Below are positions 15,012 through 25,738 of a stretch of DNA of 32,968 nucleotides, piece by piece. Origin of the DNA: a virus. Position numbers and translations under genes: made by a program. The stretch spans positions 1 through 32,968 of the IMG/VR virus record IMGVR_UViG_3300048026_000308; one strand, given 5' to 3'. The notes beneath the pieces are model-generated. The model was not told the origin of the DNA, did not search any database, and saw only the letters and a list, made by a program, of their open reading frames with translations. Each line of letters opens with the position of its first letter. Positions within the stretch are counted from its first letter, which is position 1.

Positions 15012-15230
15012 ATGAGTAATTCAGGAAAATCAGGGTTCGAAATCAGAGCCGACCTATTATCACAAGCAGAAGGACTATTGACTTCTAATTATCAGAGGGA
15101 AGTTGATGCTATCTACGCACACAACGACTCATTCCCAAATGATAAAAAACCTTTACCATTAAGAGAAATCACTGGTGAAGAAGTCATTAGAGTTGCAAGA
15201 CAATTGAATGAGTTCGTCATCGAAAAATAA
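15012..15230 (+). CDS. Small conserved marine T4-like phage protein
   Basis: A 72-residue protein beginning MSNSGKSGFEIRADLLSQAE, with AGGAG ten bases before the ATG. The SGFEIRADLL..A.GLL pattern is one I recall from small uncharacterised proteins of T4-like cyanophages; the function is not known. It is the first gene right of the minus-strand unit and overlaps the next gene by 23 bases. Confidence 0.75.
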   Translation: MSNSGKSGFEIRADLLSQAEGLLTSNYQREVDAIYAHNDSFPNDKKPLPLREITGEEVIRVARQLNEFVIEK

Positions 15231-15603
15231 TATTTGTCTATCGTGCAATTTGTGTTGTTCACAACCGAATGAGACAATCCACCTCTTTGATAAAGAATAC
15301 GAACTATTCGATGTAAAGGATATTACCTCATATGAAGGTCAAGACTTTACACATAGTGTAACTTTTGATGGGGGTGGTTGCACAAACCTAACATCAAATG
15401 GCATATGCAGAGTATATGATAAACGACCATACACTTGCAGAACCTTTGAGTGTGGAGTATTGGTAAAATACAAAACAGGTGAGTATGATTATGATAAATC
15501 CAAACGACTCATACAACTTGTTAAAAATGGTGACATGAAAGTTTGGAGAGAGGAATTTGAGAAAGATTCCATTTCACCAAAAACGGTGATGAAAAAAACA
15601 TAA
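15208..15603 (+). CDS. YkgJ-like cysteine-cluster (zinc/iron-chelating) protein
   Basis: A 131-residue protein with the YkgJ/UPF0153 pattern. An N-terminal cluster CLSCNLCC (C-x2-C-x2-CC) is followed by GGGCTNLTSNGICRVYDKRP and YTCRTFEC, that is G-x-C-x2-Y-x2-RP-x2-CR-x-F-x-C. These cysteines are thought to bind a metal or Fe-S cluster; the cellular role of the family is unclear. The start at 15208 lies within the preceding gene and no shorter start keeps the first cysteine cluster. A CATAAATA late-promoter match overlaps its end. Confidence 0.8.
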   Translation: MSSSSKNNICLSCNLCCSQPNETIHLFDKEYELFDVKDITSYEGQDFTHSVTFDGGGCTNLTSNGICRVYDKRPYTCRTFECGVLVKYKTGEYDYDKSKRLIQLVKNGDMKVWREEFEKDSISPKTVMKKT

Positions 15604-17525: not shown

Positions 17526-18930
17526 TACAGTTCGTGTCTCTAAGATAGACGAAGTTTTTTTAAAAGTAGAGTGTCCCGATGATGGTCTTGCAAAAGACTT
17601 GTTTGACTTCTTTTCCTTTACAGTTCCAAATGCAAAGTTTATGCCTTCCTACAGAAACAAATGGTGGGATGGTAAGGTTCGTTTATTCTCAATCAAAACA
17701 AGAAAGATATACATAGGATTACTTCCTTACATAGATGAGTTCTGTAAAGAACGAGGATATGAGTTTGAAGGGATTGAAGATGTTATTGGTGTTAAACATA
17801 GAGAGAAGTGTAGTCAGTCATGGTTAGCAGATTTAGACTTACCTTTTCCTCCAAGAGATTATCAGATAGATGCATTCAATACTGCAGTTCAATATGGGAG
17901 ACAACTATTACTATCTCCAACTGCAAGTGGTAAGTCATTGATTATATACTTACTTGCAAGATACTATGATGTTAAAACGGTTATCATAGTTCCTACTACA
18001 TCACTAGTAGAACAAATGACAAAAGATTTTGAAGAGTATGGATATAAGGAAAGAGTCTGTAAGATATATCATGGACAAGAAGTGTTTGATGCACCAATAA
18101 CAATCACCACATGGCAATCATTCGCAAAAGCACCAAAGGAGGTGTTAAGTTCTTTTGATATGGTTGTCGGTGACGAAGCACATTTATTCAAAGCAGATGT
18201 TCTCAAAGGTATCTTAGAGAAGATGAAAAAAACTGCAATACGATTTGGAACTACTGGAACACTGGATGGTTCAGAGGTTCATAGATTACAACTCGAAGGT
18301 TTGTTCGGCCCAGTCAAAAAAGTTATATCAACTAAAGATTTAATGGAAGATGGAACTATTGCAAATCTTTCAATTGATTGTATCATACTTCGTCATACTA
18401 AACAGAAGAAAGGAAACTACCAAGAAGAGATGGACTACTTGGTCGGCAATGATAGTAGGAACGAATTTATTTGTAATCTTGTATATTCACTTAAAGGAAA
18501 TACATTAGTCTTGTTTCAATATGTAGAGAAACATGGTGCAGTCTTACATGGTAAAATGTTTAAGAGACTTGATGATAAACTACACTATGTTTACGGTGGA
18601 ACTGATGTAACTGATAGAGAAGAAGTCAGAACAATCGTAGAGAAAGCAGAAGACAATGTTATACTTGCATCTTATGGTACATTCTCAACTGGAGTGAACA
18701 TTAAGAAAATTGATAATGTGGTTTTTGCATCACCATCCAAATCAAGAATTAGAAATCTACAATCAATTGGTAGAGGACTTCGTAAGACTGAAGGCAAAAC
18801 AGAAATGAGACTGTTTGACATTGCAGATGATTTACAATGTAATAACTATACACTTAACCACCTTAAAGAAAGAATAAATATCTATAACGAAGAAGGATTT
18901 AAATACGAAATAAAACAATTCAACTTATGA
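17518..18930 (+). CDS. uvsW: UvsW DNA/RNA helicase
   Basis: A 470-residue superfamily 2 helicase (503 in T4). I choose the ATG at 17518, giving MSNTVRVSKIDEVFLKVEC as in marine relatives, over an upstream ATG at 17494. N-terminal domain: FMPSYRNKWWDGKVRLF. Motif I is SPTASGKS at 133-140, motif II DEAH at 219-222, motif III GTTGTL and motif VI QSIGRGLRK at about 415-423. UvsW drives branch migration and unwinds R-loops, switching replication from origins to recombination. It overlaps the oxygenase by eight bases and the next gene by four (ATGA). Confidence 0.96.
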   Translation: MSNTVRVSKIDEVFLKVECPDDGLAKDLFDFFSFTVPNAKFMPSYRNKWWDGKVRLFSIKTRKIYIGLLPYIDEFCKERGYEFEGIEDVIGVKHREKCSQSWLADLDLPFPPRDYQIDAFNTAVQYGRQLLLSPTASGKSLIIYLLARYYDVKTVIIVPTTSLVEQMTKDFEEYGYKERVCKIYHGQEVFDAPITITTWQSFAKAPKEVLSSFDMVVGDEAHLFKADVLKGILEKMKKTAIRFGTTGTLDGSEVHRLQLEGLFGPVKKVISTKDLMEDGTIANLSIDCIILRHTKQKKGNYQEEMDYLVGNDSRNEFICNLVYSLKGNTLVLFQYVEKHGAVLHGKMFKRLDDKLHYVYGGTDVTDREEVRTIVEKAEDNVILASYGTFSTGVNIKKIDNVVFASPSKSRIRNLQSIGRGLRKTEGKTEMRLFDIADDLQCNNYTLNHLKERINIYNEEGFKYEIKQFNL

Positions 18931-19373
18931 GATACGAAGTAATAAAAATAATAACGGGTGCTGAGATTTGTGGTATGGTAGAAGAAGTAGGAGATACTAT
19001 AAGGATTACTGCACCTATGGTATGTCAACTTTCAAGATTAGATTTAACTAATACTCTTGCAACCTTTATACCTTACACACCTGTAAGTTCAGACTCAATG
19101 ATTTCTATAGACACTGAACATGTTCTTCATAGAAGTAAAATGAGTGAACAATACATCCCCTTTTATGATGAAGCATCCTCAAAGTGGTTAACTATGGTAG
19201 AAACTGAATCTATCCCTTTAACCAACAAGATGCCTAAAATGGAATACATCAAAGACACCATCAACAAATTAGTTGCAGGAATGTCAGATGAAGAATTAGA
19301 TAAACTGGAAGAGGAACAGTTCTTAGAAGAAGATTCTCTTCTTGCACCATCCGACCCTAAGAAAATTCATTAG
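18927..19373 (+). CDS. Conserved phage protein downstream of uvsW, unknown function
   Basis: A 148-residue protein coupled to uvsW by an ATGA overlap. The first 80 residues look beta-rich (RYEVIKIITGAEICGMVEEV, TIRITAPMVCQL). They recall small Sm-like barrel proteins that follow uvsW in T4-like marine phages; that fold assignment is only an impression. The C-terminal 40 residues are strongly acidic and helical (MSDEELDKLEEEQFLEEDS). No enzyme motif is seen. Confidence 0.65.
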   Translation: MRYEVIKIITGAEICGMVEEVGDTIRITAPMVCQLSRLDLTNTLATFIPYTPVSSDSMISIDTEHVLHRSKMSEQYIPFYDEASSKWLTMVETESIPLTNKMPKMEYIKDTINKLVAGMSDEELDKLEEEQFLEEDSLLAPSDPKKIH

Positions 19374-19458
19374 GATTTTAGTTTGTCTAAATATGTGCGT
19401 ATAACATAGATTTATATCACATTATACAAAATACTTATAACTTAACTTTAGGAAAACC

Positions 19459-19632
19459 ATGACCACAGCAACTTTTTTTGCGAAGAGCATGGTGCGAAAA
19501 GCTAGAGAAGTCAACCATCAAGTTAGACCTGTAAAGAGAAAACTGGTTGACACTATCGAATTTCTAGTGCTGATGACTCTTCCGTTCTTACTACCATTTA
19601 TGATAATGTATCTATCGAGGGCATCCCTATGA
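19459..19632 (+). CDS. Small single-span membrane protein, cassette member 1
   Basis: A 57-residue ORF with a basic N-terminal half (KSMVRKAREVNHQVRPVKRK). One strongly hydrophobic helix covers about residues 34-52 (FLVLMTLPFLLPFMIMYL). TTTAGGA precedes the ATG. Its stop overlaps the next start (ATGA). The positive-inside rule suggests a cytoplasmic N-terminus. A TCTAAATA element at about 19386-19393 in the 85-base gap upstream could be a weak late promoter for the cassette. I recognise no family; the neighbouring cytochrome c suggests a respiratory-membrane role. Confidence 0.6.
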   Translation: MTTATFFAKSMVRKAREVNHQVRPVKRKLVDTIEFLVLMTLPFLLPFMIMYLSRASL

Positions 19633-19703
19633 GAGATAAATTAGAAATCGGTACACTTACGTTTATTTTTTGTTTATCAGTACTTTCACTTACAGGAGTA
19701 TAA
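19629..19703 (+). CDS. Putative 24-residue membrane peptide, cassette member 2
   Basis: The ORF MRDKLEIGTLTFIFCLSVLS and four more residues starts by ATGA overlap with the previous gene and ends one base before the cytochrome c ATG. Residues about 7-21 are hydrophobic. The last codons (ACAGGAGTA) also serve as the ribosome binding site of the cytochrome c gene. This could therefore be only a translational-coupling leader rather than a functional peptide. Confidence 0.4.
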   Translation: MRDKLEIGTLTFIFCLSVLSLTGV

Positions 19704-19704
19704 T

Positions 19705-20148
19705 ATGAAAGAATTAGGAATGTCTCTATTAGGATGTATTGCAATCGCAACTTTCTTTGTTGCAAAAGTATATCCAAACTTAGAATACAGTGGATATAGT
19801 AGTAATACTTCATGCACTGGTCAGTGTTATGTTGACTATGTTGCATTGAACGGAACTGCATCAGAAATACAACAAAGAAAAAATGCACTTGCAAATGCAG
19901 ATGAGTTCTCTTCTATTAGAAGTCTATGGAGTGGGTGTGCAGCTTGTCACGGTGCAGAAGGTCAAGGTATGGCAGTCTTTCCTAAACTTGCAGGTCAATC
20001 ACAAGATTACATTGTAAGTAAACTCAATGCATATAAAAATAGAGAGACAGTCGGTAATATGTCTTCTACTATGTGGGCTCAAGCAGGAATGTTGAGTGAT
20101 GCAGATATCAATATGATTGGTAAGTTTATAGAGGTGGAGTTAAAGTAA
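19705..20148 (+). CDS. Membrane-anchored class I cytochrome c
   Basis: A 147-residue protein. Residues 7-21 (SLLGCIAIATFFVAK) form an uncleaved signal-anchor, leaving a periplasmic domain. Heme attachment is C78-A-A-C81-H82 in SLWSGCAACHGAEGQG, followed by FPKLAGQSQDYIVSKLNAY and MSSTMWAQAGMLSDADINMI, the pattern of small c5/c553-type cytochromes. The axial methionine is probably M119 or M123. An extra pair C36/C41 (SCTGQC) may form a disulfide. It would carry electrons at the inner membrane after heme loading by the host Ccm or Ccs system. AGGAG lies upstream and its TAA overlaps the next ATG. Cytochromes are rare in phages, and the partner is unknown. Confidence 0.9.
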   Translation: MKELGMSLLGCIAIATFFVAKVYPNLEYSGYSSNTSCTGQCYVDYVALNGTASEIQQRKNALANADEFSSIRSLWSGCAACHGAEGQGMAVFPKLAGQSQDYIVSKLNAYKNRETVGNMSSTMWAQAGMLSDADINMIGKFIEVELK

Positions 20149-20354
20149 TGTACGTTCCTTGGTTTACAAAACCCGATACTGAAAAGAAAATACTACAGGT
20201 TGTAAACCTTTCACCTGATGAATCTTGGATTGAGAAAATTGTTGAAGTTCACCCAATGAAACAAGTTGCAATAATGTCAGTCGTGCAAGTCCTCGTTTTC
20301 GGTTTTATGCTCTTGTCCTTTTACTTAATCAACGTAGGATTGGACAGATTGTGA
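20148..20354 (+). CDS. Small single-span membrane protein, cassette member 4
   Basis: A 68-residue protein translationally coupled to the cytochrome c gene (TAATG). A polar N-terminal part (MYVPWFTKPDTEKKILQVV) precedes one hydrophobic helix at about residues 40-63 (VAIMSVVQVLVFGFMLLSFY). Its small size and single span resemble accessory subunits of membrane redox complexes, but I see no specific family signature. Its TGA overlaps a GTG start for the next small ORF. Confidence 0.7.
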   Translation: MYVPWFTKPDTEKKILQVVNLSPDESWIEKIVEVHPMKQVAIMSVVQVLVFGFMLLSFYLINVGLDRL

Positions 20355-20476
20355 AACACTATATAATATATACAATTTTAGGTTGGTGCATGTTTGAACT
20401 TGCCGTTGGTGATATCGATAGAATGAGTCGTGCAATTAATAATCCTGCAAAGAGTAGAGTTATAACCTACACTTAA
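20351..20476 (+). CDS. 41-residue protein with hydrophobic N-terminus, cassette member 5
   Basis: Starts with GTG in a GTGA overlap with the previous gene. The sequence VKHYIIYTILGWCMFELAVG has a hydrophobic first half; the rest (DIDRMSRAINNPAKSRVITY) is polar. The overlap and absence of stops support a real gene, but the size and non-ATG start keep confidence moderate. It is the last member of the cytochrome cassette; 143 bases without a gene follow. Confidence 0.5.
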   Translation: MKHYIIYTILGWCMFELAVGDIDRMSRAINNPAKSRVITYT

Positions 20477-20586: not shown

Positions 20587-20619
20587 ATGAATTTAAAGAA
20601 TTATCCGTATAATAGAGGT

Positions 20620-21183
20620 ATGACAACAAAAAAAGACCCCAAAAAAGCAATTCATTATGTATCTAATAAAGACTTTACAGCTGCAGTTGCAGATTATGTA
20701 AGTCAGATACAGTCCAATCTTTCTGAAGGAAAGGAAGCACCACAAATGTCAGAGTACATAGGAGAGTGCATTTATAAAATTGCAACCCGTCTATCTACAA
20801 GACCAAACTTCATCAACTACACATATAGAGATGAAATGATTTGTGATGCAATTGAAAACTGTATTCAATACATTGGGAACTTTAAAGTAGAGAAGTCCAA
20901 CAATGCATTCGCATATGTTACCCAAATCTGTTACTATGCTTTCTTAAGAAGAATACAAAAAGAAAAGAAACAGGTTTACATCAAACAAAAGTCAACAATA
21001 GAATCTGCATTAACATTAGATTCATTTACAACTATAGATGGCATTCATGACCCAACCCTTATTAACACAAATGTTGAGTGGATGAACGAAAATATGAATC
21101 ATGTCGAGTATAAACCTCGTAAATCTAAAAGAGTATCAACAAAGAATAATTTAGAAACTAACTTCTCAGAAGAAGAGGAATAA
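20620..21183 (+). CDS. gp55: Late-transcription sigma factor gp55
   Basis: A 187-residue homologue of T4 gp55 (185). I use the ATG at 20620 with AGAGGT just upstream, rather than the in-frame ATG at 20587, because MTTKKDPKKAIHYVSNKDF fits the family start. Conserved parts are YIGECIYKIATRLSTRPNF, RDEMICDAIENCIQYIGNF and NAFAYVTQICYYAFLRRIQK, a minimal sigma-70 region 2. It directs host RNA polymerase to NATAAATA promoters with the sliding clamp gp45 as coactivator, both encoded here. The C-terminal acidic tail (NFSEEEE) recalls the clamp-binding end of T4 gp55. Confidence 0.93.
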   Translation: MTTKKDPKKAIHYVSNKDFTAAVADYVSQIQSNLSEGKEAPQMSEYIGECIYKIATRLSTRPNFINYTYRDEMICDAIENCIQYIGNFKVEKSNNAFAYVTQICYYAFLRRIQKEKKQVYIKQKSTIESALTLDSFTTIDGIHDPTLINTNVEWMNENMNHVEYKPRKSKRVSTKNNLETNFSEEEE

Positions 21184-23975: not shown

Positions 23976-25112
23976 ATGAAATCTTTTAAAGAACATCTAG
24001 AGAAACCTTTAGTAAGAAGTAAACTAGCATATTCTTACGACATCCCTGTTGACTTACTAGAGAGTAAGAGCATGGGTGAAACTACACAAAATGCATCCAT
24101 AACAGAATTGTTTCCGTGTTTAGCATTTAACAAAAAGTTTAGACCCAATAGTGTAGAAGATTTTAAAAAGTTTCTTTACAAGTTAAATATAAAAAGTGCA
24201 AAAACCTCTTATGCATCTTCAGATGCAGATGCTGCTGCAGAAGTTATAGACAGACTCAGCACTATGGAAGAAAGGTTTGTTAAGATGAAAATAGAAAATG
24301 CAATTGGCATTACAAATTTTTTATATGATTTGAATACTTCTAAACCTATACGAAAAGTAGTATGGGGATATCGTGCAAAACCCACTGGAGTTCCTAAAAA
24401 TCATGCAGGAGATATTTTTGTATTCTTTAAAAATAAAGAGATACTAGGTATCTCATTAAAGGCAGGAACAACAAAATCTACAGAACCATTATTAAACTCT
24501 TATGTTAAGACTCAACTTAAAAAGATGGATAAAGAATCAGCACTTAAACCTATGGAAGATGAACTTTGGGATGCAGTGTATTCTAAAATTCCAAACATAG
24601 AATCGGTTGCATCAAAAAGTACTTATGCAAGTGGAGATAGAAAAGTCACTGCAGGTGTCAGACAACTATACTTGGATTACCATCTTCAAAATGAAGAAGA
24701 GTCTAACAATTTGTATGCTGCAATGGTAAGAATACAAAGAACTCATGTGTGTAAAGCACTAAATGAATTATCACTAGAAGATTTCAAAAATTGGGTATAT
24801 GATAATTTCAATTTACAAAAACCTGCAAAAGTTCCACTAATATTAGTAAAAGCAGTAGGTAAAACAGCAGAACAAAAAGGGGACGACCTTGCATCATTAT
24901 TACCACTGGTCACAAGTTTTAAAGCATATCTAAATAAAGCATCAGTTCAAGAATGGTTTATAGATATAGATACACCCGATGAAATGAAGAAACTGAAGAT
25001 GACAATTAGAAGTGATGCAGGAGTTAGAGAAGGTAAGAAACTCGCAACACTAGGAAGATTGGCAAAATTTAGTATGTTAAAATTACAATATAGTGGAGTA
25101 GTAGATAGATAA
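23976..25112 (+). CDS. Putative PD-(D/E)XK-fold nuclease, otherwise unknown
   Basis: A 378-residue protein. The block AGDIFVFFKNKEILGISLKA has the core of a PD-(D/E)XK nuclease: D146 at the end of one strand and S160-L-K162 on the next, replacing the usual E-x-K, as in some restriction enzymes. E44 in ITELFPCLAF could be the helix-A acidic residue. The remainder is lysine-rich and could bind DNA. Candidate roles are degradation of host DNA or recombination, in line with gp46/47 upstream. The TAATG overlap couples it to the deformylase. The fold is inferred from motif spacing only. Confidence 0.55.
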   Translation: MKSFKEHLEKPLVRSKLAYSYDIPVDLLESKSMGETTQNASITELFPCLAFNKKFRPNSVEDFKKFLYKLNIKSAKTSYASSDADAAAEVIDRLSTMEERFVKMKIENAIGITNFLYDLNTSKPIRKVVWGYRAKPTGVPKNHAGDIFVFFKNKEILGISLKAGTTKSTEPLLNSYVKTQLKKMDKESALKPMEDELWDAVYSKIPNIESVASKSTYASGDRKVTAGVRQLYLDYHLQNEEESNNLYAAMVRIQRTHVCKALNELSLEDFKNWVYDNFNLQKPAKVPLILVKAVGKTAEQKGDDLASLLPLVTSFKAYLNKASVQEWFIDIDTPDEMKKLKMTIRSDAGVREGKKLATLGRLAKFSMLKLQYSGVVDR

Positions 25113-25738
25113 TGTATACATTAGTAGAAGAAGCATCAAAGGTATTAAGAACACCTCCTTTAGAATTTGATTTTGATAATCCATCAGAAGACCCAAAGGA
25201 AATAGAGAGTCTATTATCTGAAGCAATGGATAGATTTGGTGGTATTGGTTTATCTGCAAATCAAGTTGGATTAGATGTTAGATGTTTTGTTATGAAGACT
25301 GCAGATGCAGGAAACAAAACTTTCTTTAATCCCGAAATAACAAGACTATCCCAAGAAACAGAATTACAAAAAGAGGGATGTTTATCGTTTCCCGATTTAT
25401 TTCTTATGATAAAAAGAGCAAGAGTAATAGAAATGAAATATCAAGACAGTGATGGTACTGAACACACTTTGATATTAGATGGTCTTGGTGCAAGATGCGC
25501 TCAACATGAAATAGACCATTTAAATGGTATAGTGTTTCTACAACGAGCATCTAAATTGAAATTAGAACGTGCATTGAAATCACGTCCTAAAGAAAAAAGG
25601 AAAAGAATAGAAAATGAAAAACGAAGAGCAATTGCAGAGTACATCAAGACCCTTCAATCTGATAAAGATTCCGAATCTAGTGAATCCACAACAAGCAAAG
25701 GAACTGATACACTTCCACAAAACGCACAAACATCTTAG
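25112..25738 (+). CDS. def: Peptide deformylase with long C-terminal extension
   Basis: A 208-residue enzyme that removes N-terminal formyl groups from new proteins. All three motifs are present: GIGLSANQVG (45-54), EGCLSF with metal ligand C90, and QHEIDH with H132, E133 and H136. The catalytic domain ends near residue 150; residues 150-208 are a charged then Ser/Thr-rich tail (SDKDSESSESTTSKGTDT). The last 125 bases overlap the next gene in another frame, so this tail may be a by-product of overprinting. Deformylases are known in marine T4-like phages; faster processing of phage or photosystem-like proteins has been proposed there. Confidence 0.95.
   Translation: MYTLVEEASKVLRTPPLEFDFDNPSEDPKEIESLLSEAMDRFGGIGLSANQVGLDVRCFVMKTADAGNKTFFNPEITRLSQETELQKEGCLSFPDLFLMIKRARVIEMKYQDSDGTEHTLILDGLGARCAQHEIDHLNGIVFLQRASKLKLERALKSRPKEKRKRIENEKRRAIAEYIKTLQSDKDSESSESTTSKGTDTLPQNAQTS

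Follow-up and report, generated by a model that had tools for sequence, protein, structure and literature searches.

Introduction

Phage takeover of photosynthesis is well known: T4-like cyanophages carry a soluble electron carrier (plastocyanin, PetE) and a quinol oxidase, the plastoquinol terminal oxidase PTOX. In the literature that we consulted, takeover of aerobic respiration is far less documented, an exception being the respiratory-chain reads (cbb3 oxidase) found in marine viruses, with host predictions that include SAR86, as given in the consulted part of PMC3474794. Here we describe a cassette of five small open reading frames (ORFs), one of them encoding a c-type cytochrome, in the IMG/VR virus record IMGVR_UViG_3300048026_000308 (32,968 bases; "the window" below means this whole stretch). 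We lean towards reading the cassette as a phage-borne respiratory electron-transfer module. By analogy, it suggests that T4-like phages with their own cytochrome c may tune host respiration as cyanophages tune photosynthesis. Phages are already known to carry electron-transport genes; a cytochrome c family with phage-only microproteins and respiratory companions appears, from the open-access titles and abstracts searched, to be undescribed.

The described systems come close to this locus from several sides. Like PetE and PTOX, the cassette sits in a phage genome with hallmark genes and includes a homologue of a host-type carrier: 76 of 398 Pseudomonadota genomes match the cytochrome profile at 1e-9. 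Unlike the cyanophage genes, it combines a cytochrome c with phage-specific membrane microproteins and, in relatives, with alternative oxidase (AOX) and pseudoazurin of bacterial types; no photosystem gene was noticed in the loci that we read, though none was searched for. The consulted part of PMC3474794 reports oxidase subunit reads (n = 158), with no cytochrome c gene and no such cassette. In PMC11480375, again as far as the consulted part goes, AlaS cassettes of pelagimyophage-like contigs, the same broad kind of phage as ours, are argued to supply tetrapyrroles that support respiration of the infected cell; the genes given there are hemO, pcyA/X and alaS, with no cytochrome or small proteins of the present type. 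According to the portion of PMC8115048 consulted, its phages showed no electron carriers of the cytochrome kind or the like, and the word "cytochrome" does not occur in the main text of PMC7029224. Among the titles and abstract openings retrieved from the open-access literature, we found no description of this cytochrome or cassette.

Results

A conserved cassette between uvsW and gp55

The window bears T4-like hallmarks: uvsY, uvsW, the late sigma factor gp55 and a gp23-type capsid protein. The closest gp23 proteins are those of Methylophilales phage Melnitz (67.1% identity; host group OM43) and Pelagibacter phage HTVC008M (66.0%; SAR11). The features of the cassette and its borders are as follows.

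19459..19632, + strand: orf57, 57 aa, one membrane stretch predicted by hydropathy, member of the AKSMVRK...IEFLVLMTLPFLLPF family (family conservation, frame ratio, hydropathy)
19629..19703, + strand: orf24, hydrophobic microprotein of 24 aa (family conservation, frame ratio, hydropathy)
19705..20148, + strand: c-type cytochrome, 147 aa (Pfam PF00034, PDB profile match, Foldseek, residue conservation, frame ratio)
20148..20354, + strand: orf68, 68 aa, HPMKQ followed by one long helix (helix 36-67 in the model) (family profiles, frame ratio)
20351..20476, + strand: orf41, 41 aa, GTG start, MKHYIIYT...VGDIDRMSRAI, weakly hydrophobic (family conservation, frame ratio)
19374..19458, + strand: non-coding leader with blocks CTAAATA, TGCGTATAA and the ribosome-binding-like AGGAAAA (alignment of 12 leaders)
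18927..19373, + strand: T4-like gene of 148 aa (phrog_471), flanking context outside the module (PHROG match)
20587..21183, + strand: gp55 late sigma factor, the downstream border (phrog_234, 4e-55)

A previous sequence-only reading of this DNA had placed five ORFs here, a c-type cytochrome and four others of 57, 24, 68 and 41 aa, and all five are where it put them, with those lengths. The tight coupling that it described holds at three junctions, where genes overlap in ATGA (orf57/orf24), TAATG (cytochrome/orf68) and GTGA (orf68/orf41); orf24 and the cytochrome gene are separated by 1 nt (TAATATG). The cassette does lie in the uvsW-gp55 interval, with the 148-aa phrog_471 gene standing between uvsW and orf57.

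All five ORFs are genes under purifying selection. For distinct copies from the uvsW/gp55 context, we set amino-acid-changing against silent changes, both in the true frame and in the two shifted frames. In-frame ratios were 0.40 for orf57, 0.23 for orf24, 0.26 for the cytochrome, 0.19 for orf68 and 0.28 for orf41, and those of the shifted frames ranged across the five ORFs from 0.67 to 6.87. This context-restricted test supersedes a run on mixed families with unsure starts (0.27-0.56). The small ORFs are thus conserved in related phages, as the sequence-only reading needed them to be, both in profile searches and by their ratios (0.19-0.40).

Judged by hydropathy alone, each ORF has a hydrophobic stretch: the best 19-residue Kyte-Doolittle mean is 2.08 in orf57, 1.72 in orf24, 2.00 in the cytochrome, 2.39 in orf68 and, lowest, 1.41 in orf41. 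At least three of the small proteins had been read as carrying such a segment; all of them do, orf41 with the weakest.

The same gene order, which had been proposed as something to look for in other phages, recurs. Among the first 154 loci, several of which are overlapping pieces of one contig, 36 have the full order uvsY-oxygenase-uvsW-p148-orf57-orf24-cytochrome-orf68-orf41-gp55-gp47, and many more have partial versions of it, some cut by contig ends. The uvsW-gp55 interval of four cultured relatives (Mosig, C48C1, HTVC008M and Melnitz) holds no such cassette, and profiles of the cytochrome and the orf68 family had no match in the whole genomes of these four.

A heme domain of c4/c554/c552 type with an apparently phage-specific N-terminal half

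Pfam assigns the 147-aa protein to Cytochrom_C (PF00034, 1.7e-8, over the cut-off). A 30-row cytochrome profile run against the PDB retrieved structures of c4 and of monoheme c552/c554 cytochromes: 1h1o (3.5e-19), 8yts (2.1e-18) and 2zzs (6e-17). The AlphaFold2 model is of middling confidence (mean pLDDT 73.6); with it, Foldseek returned four matches at E≤0.001, all of them cytochromes c (TM by target 0.72-0.82), and gave a probability of 1.00 to the top matches, which belong to the c4/c554/c552-type group. The predicted structure is that of a cytochrome c fold, with a heme domain that is nearest to this group. Of the earlier description, the CAACH site and the N-terminal hydrophobic stretch stand; what was called a c5/c553-like C-terminus belongs to a heme domain closer to c4/c554/c552 than strictly to c5/c553.

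Along the protein we find a hydrophobic N-terminal stretch (approximately residues 4-22), a CxxxC motif (C37 and C41), CAACH (78-82) and Met123. Nine residues are invariant in all 118 distinct phage copies of at least 135 aa: C78, C81, H82, M123, C37, C41, Y45, W75 and W124. M123 aligns with a Met of 8yts, which we take to be an axial heme ligand in the relatives. The known cytochromes of this type, namely Vibrio c554 (2zzs), Pseudomonas nautica c552 (1cno), Thioalkalivibrio c546/556 (8yts) and the di-heme c4, share with it the CxxCH motif, the C-terminal helix and the Met in axial position. The phage protein differs from them in its added N-terminal hydrophobic stretch and CxxxC part, in having a single heme site, and in being phage-encoded. 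The AlphaFold2 model has C37 and C41 where a helix begins, after the hydrophobic stretch and ahead of the heme domain. All but one of the matches listed for the 398 Pseudomonadota genomes start no earlier than cytochrome position 51; the other starts at 6. Since cellular relatives align almost solely over the heme domain, the N-terminal half with its invariant CxxxC seems to be a phage feature.

This CxxxC part leaves room for another role. The protein could be a periplasmic redox heme protein rather than a shuttle: a redox sensor, a factor in disulfide or metal (copper/heme) handling, or a peroxide sink. In its favour, C37 and C41 equal the heme ligands in invariance, and homologues from cells align with little beyond the heme domain. 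Against it, the nearest solved structures bear the names c552, c554 and c4, cytochromes that serve as electron carriers. We hold this explanation to be improbable, and return to it with the neighbouring genes.

The cytochrome often adjoins orf68 or a glutaredoxin gene

In IMG/VR, relatives numbered 261 in a single-sequence cytochrome scan, 481 with the cytochrome profile and 196 in an orf68 scan. The best 80 of each scan were kept (plus one list of 37), picked by likeness to the queries, so that the loci are a non-random sample. Against 50,697 phage records, the cytochrome had no match at 1e-3 and orf68 none better than E 1 among the matches listed. Excluding cellular loci (L159-L162, L170-L172, L174-L206), 286 loci gave 128 distinct cytochromes, 108 of them flanked on both sides. 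Four of the 128 come from contigs filed in bacterial metagenome-assembled genomes (L155-L158): Synechococcus CPC35 (two), Planctomycetaceae TMED10 and Sphingobacteriales. These contigs look like phage sequence binned with the bacterial genomes, and we set them aside as evidence of a host. The Sphingobacteriales one, 121 kb long, has both the cytochrome and orf68.

orf68 adjoins the cytochrome gene in 53 of the 108 flanked copies (24 upstream, 29 downstream). A glutaredoxin gene does so in 65 (54 downstream, 11 upstream). One or the other adjoins in 92 copies and both in 26, so the cytochrome is mostly not a lone gene among random neighbours, an outcome that would have spoken against the sequence-only reading. 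For a redox sensor or disulfide-handling protein the frequent glutaredoxin neighbour would be welcome; glutaredoxin is also a cytosolic partner of ribonucleotide reductase, which explains its presence beside nrdB, and some other neighbours are carriers and an oxidase.

The contexts of the cytochrome include the uvsW-gp55 block, a block of nrdA, nrdB and glutaredoxin (nrdA recognised by eye), a block of ISC and ferritin genes, and others. The order nrdB-orf68-cytochrome-glutaredoxin was also found, in keeping with a link between dNTP supply and energy. We built a tree from 109 cytochrome rows; because it takes in L170, a cellular row, and further long branches, its counts are approximate. On the best tree the context changes at least 22 times and the side of orf68 at least seven times; strongly supported branches alone force at least five changes for the uvsW label and at least five for the nrdB label. 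Reversed orders of cytochrome and orf68 in different contexts are hard to explain from one shared ancestral arrangement alone.

Seven of the eight fetched virus records of at least 90 kb with the cytochrome hold the orf68 family (G404, G416, G433-G437; not G438), sometimes far from the cytochrome. G404 and G436 supplied rows to the orf68 profile, and the match in G435 is weak (2.9e-10).

Iron genes accompany the cytochrome at some loci. At L029:6457-8614 a ferritin-like gene, IscS and IscU follow it in a row, forming a phage iron-sulfur assembly set. In G434, a ferritin-like gene (PF00210) and then a DUF2061 membrane protein lie beside it (L447:8184-8848). The IscS/IscU pair and the c4/c554 type would presumably fit a beta- or gammaproteobacterial host.

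Other carriers and an oxidase around the same microproteins

The main clue to function comes from G436 (250 kb; L444). One strand there carries orf24, the cytochrome, an EF-hand protein, a 31-aa hydrophobic protein, pseudoazurin, an orf68 form, a ferredoxin and AOX. By NCBIfam, this pseudoazurin is over its cut-off (132.7 vs 109.85) and the FdxA-like ferredoxin under it (117.8 vs 135). The AOX matches Pfam PF01786 with E 1.2e-67 and has no NCBIfam match.

Pseudoazurin directly precedes an orf68 form in all four contigs in which it was found (G436, L415, L418 and L419); two of these four copies were put to NCBIfam and both were over the cut-off. The fetched DNA of L415, L418 and L419 holds orf24 and orf68 forms, and in two cases orf57, with no cytochrome. 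Pseudoazurin can therefore take a place in a cassette that lacks the cytochrome. In L418, it is preceded by a quinone-dependent dihydroorotate dehydrogenase (DHODH; 275.8 vs a cut-off of 200). The phage pseudoazurin weakly matches cyanophage plastocyanin (best listed E 3e-4).

Contigs that hold the cytochrome or orf68 carry AOX at 25 loci, in several arrangements; by our count these loci represent 16 contigs, many of them near copies. Three copies were checked and all were over the Pfam cut-off. Examples of PF01786 matches are L444:2437-3027 (- strand), L314:6353-6958 and L146:2975-3535. In L146, a 5-aminolevulinate synthase gene (548.5 vs a cut-off of 338.55) adjoins AOX, with orf68 approximately 1.5 kb away. 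This recalls the AlaS cassettes described above. The stretch L146:451-3538 has in a row a gene that joins glutaredoxin to the small chain of ribonucleotide reductase, the 5-aminolevulinate synthase and AOX, with orf68 further on. One AOX match, L450 (G447:16109-16675), has two in-frame TGA codons, which could reflect decay, sequencing errors or recoding.

Against the phage records at 1e-5, AOX had a single match, in phage C48C1 (OQ984149, Kyanoviridae), and none in a cyanophage. The C48C1 protein is 62% identical, is annotated "hypothetical protein", and is encoded between a tRNA gene and a clamp-loader gene in a genome with neither orf68 nor the cytochrome.

Soluble periplasmic carriers, a quinol oxidase and an enzyme that reduces quinone lie near these microproteins, and together they point to electron transfer. 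The idea of a respiratory module, put forward from gene coupling and size, thus gains from pseudoazurin, the FdxA-like ferredoxin (below its cut-off), AOX and DHODH found by these microproteins; it loses from the loci that have the microproteins and no cytochrome.

A module or a stand-alone gene

A number of observations weigh against the module. The cytochrome is optional: among 56 distinct loci found through orf68, it is missing from 14 of 30 in the uvsW context (16 have it), 8 of 15 in the nrd context (7 have it) and all 11 others, and its absence from 14 of the 30 uvsW-context loci speaks against a tight five-part complex. Three records of 96-140 kb (G417, G418 and G439) have orf68 and no cytochrome. 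From the other side, 16 of the 108 flanked cytochromes touch neither orf68 nor glutaredoxin. Resolution of the cytochrome tree is poor, with 36 of its 99 inner branches open, and genes without a common function could meet at hot spots for auxiliary genes. Of 47 virus records examined, only five have AOX, in one case with two in-frame stop codons, and only one has a cupredoxin; neither was found in searches of the window's contig and its 153-kb relative G416. Finally, five distinct cytochromes carry instead a TTIAFA N-terminus, which resembles a signal peptide and looks cleavable by eye, and membrane tethering is therefore not universal.

These facts suit an explanation in which the cytochrome is a stand-alone auxiliary gene that enters insertion hot spots, and the microproteins do an unrelated job such as superinfection exclusion, lysis timing or attachment of replication to the membrane. 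It would account for orf68, mostly with orf57 and orf24, standing without the cytochrome in those uvsW-context loci and the three long contigs. It would equally account for the 55 of 108 flanked cytochromes that do not adjoin orf68 and lie at nrdB-glutaredoxin, isc/ferritin or other sites. It sits poorly with the adjacency of cytochrome and orf68 in both orders across different contexts. Nor does it predict pseudoazurin directly before an orf68 form in four contigs of four, three of them without the cytochrome in the fetched DNA, or AOX and a ferredoxin beside the block in G436. We regard this explanation as a serious but less probable one, and keep the respiratory module as our preferred reading.

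The small membrane proteins appear to be phage-specific

At a threshold of 0.1, Pfam has no match for orf57, orf24, orf68 or orf41, and NCBIfam has none over the cut-off for orf57, orf68 or orf41. An orf68 profile finds no relative in the PDB (best E 1.1, unrelated). PHROG matches of the microproteins are weak (best E 0.011) and lead to families of unknown function. With iterated profiles, orf57, orf24 and orf68 each prove to be part of a broader family. The diverged form of orf68, DATPEE...DFFMKGDFD..KLFVVIPAVIQIVVFGMML, is joined to the window form through bridging sequences (L289, L128), and all 24 rows of the broad family keep one Gln and one Met within the membrane helix.

CcoQ and CydX are likewise short hydrophobic proteins beside a heme protein. 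In the family searches above, the microproteins had no match to these or other known small oxidase subunits, although short length can hide homology.

This likeness to supernumerary oxidase subunits, together with the gene coupling, is what would favour the wholesale capture of a respiratory operon from a host, such as oxidase subunits and the cytochrome that goes with them. The family searches point the other way, and so does the profile of the broad orf68 family, which matches 0 of 398 Pseudomonadota genomes, a weak negative. The cytochrome scores 19.2 bits against NCBIfam TIGR00782 (ccoP; cut-off 179.95), which places it outside that cbb3 subunit family; CcoN was not noticed in the loci read, where no family search was aimed at it. 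We consider such a capture highly improbable. The related proposal that the set was transplanted from a host operon finds no support in the same orf68 result or in the cellular cytochromes, which match almost only the heme domain.

A bolder form of the module reading is that the microproteins and interchangeable carriers (cytochrome c or pseudoazurin) make up a phage-evolved membrane electron-transfer complex without cellular counterpart, acting between the host quinone pool or bc1 and a host or phage oxidase. We offer this as a speculative and rather unlikely extension. If true, the complex would be a respiratory equivalent of the cyanophage photosynthesis genes, with phage-only subunits, common in uncultured marine-related T4-like phages.

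At the place of the cytochrome, between orf24 (or its place) and orf68, three loci (L143, L144 and L150) have approximately 115 extra bases. A related locus, L223, has there a further possible membrane protein of 34 aa.

A proposed role during infection

The electron-transfer role rests on the family of the cytochrome; the host chain, the partners and the roles of the small proteins are what we infer. In our proposal, the cassette genes would form one transcription unit. The cytochrome would be exported by the host Sec system, receive its heme from the host cytochrome c maturation system and stay tethered to the membrane in the periplasm. There it could take electrons from the host bc1 complex or some other donor and pass them on to a terminal oxidase of the host. 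The resulting supply of ATP and reductant might keep dNTP synthesis running during infection. orf68 would be the most likely direct partner, as a docking or anchoring subunit, with orf57, orf24 and orf41 as likely accessory membrane subunits.

The phage cytochromes form a large family, conserved and mobile, whose members often have membrane partners known here only from phages; some relatives add a phage AOX or pseudoazurin. The family raises the testable question of whether lytic phages rewire respiration in the host to meet the cost of replication, and gives hypothetical phage microproteins a concrete functional hypothesis.

The leader and other features of the window

In the 85-base leader 5' of orf57, the blocks CTAAATA and TGCGTA are invariant in all 12 leaders picked for alignment, and a promoter there seems plausible from this conservation. 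CTAAATA is not enriched in the window (6 observed vs 7.7 expected), nor is TGCGTATAA with at most one mismatch (6 vs 4.8). A late-promoter class was considered for the leader and none was assigned, because CTAAATA, though kept in leaders, lacks enrichment in the window. Searches of the window for RNA families and tRNAs found none.

The phrog_471 family of the 148-aa gene bears the label "methylamine utilization", an uninformative name, and a gene so named lies at the same place in Mosig. Elsewhere in the window, positions 15208-15603 encode a putative zinc/iron-chelating CxxCxxCC protein (PF03692, 1.1e-8). At 25112-25738 there is a candidate peptide deformylase, its motifs recognised by eye; an annotated one is similarly placed in Melnitz.

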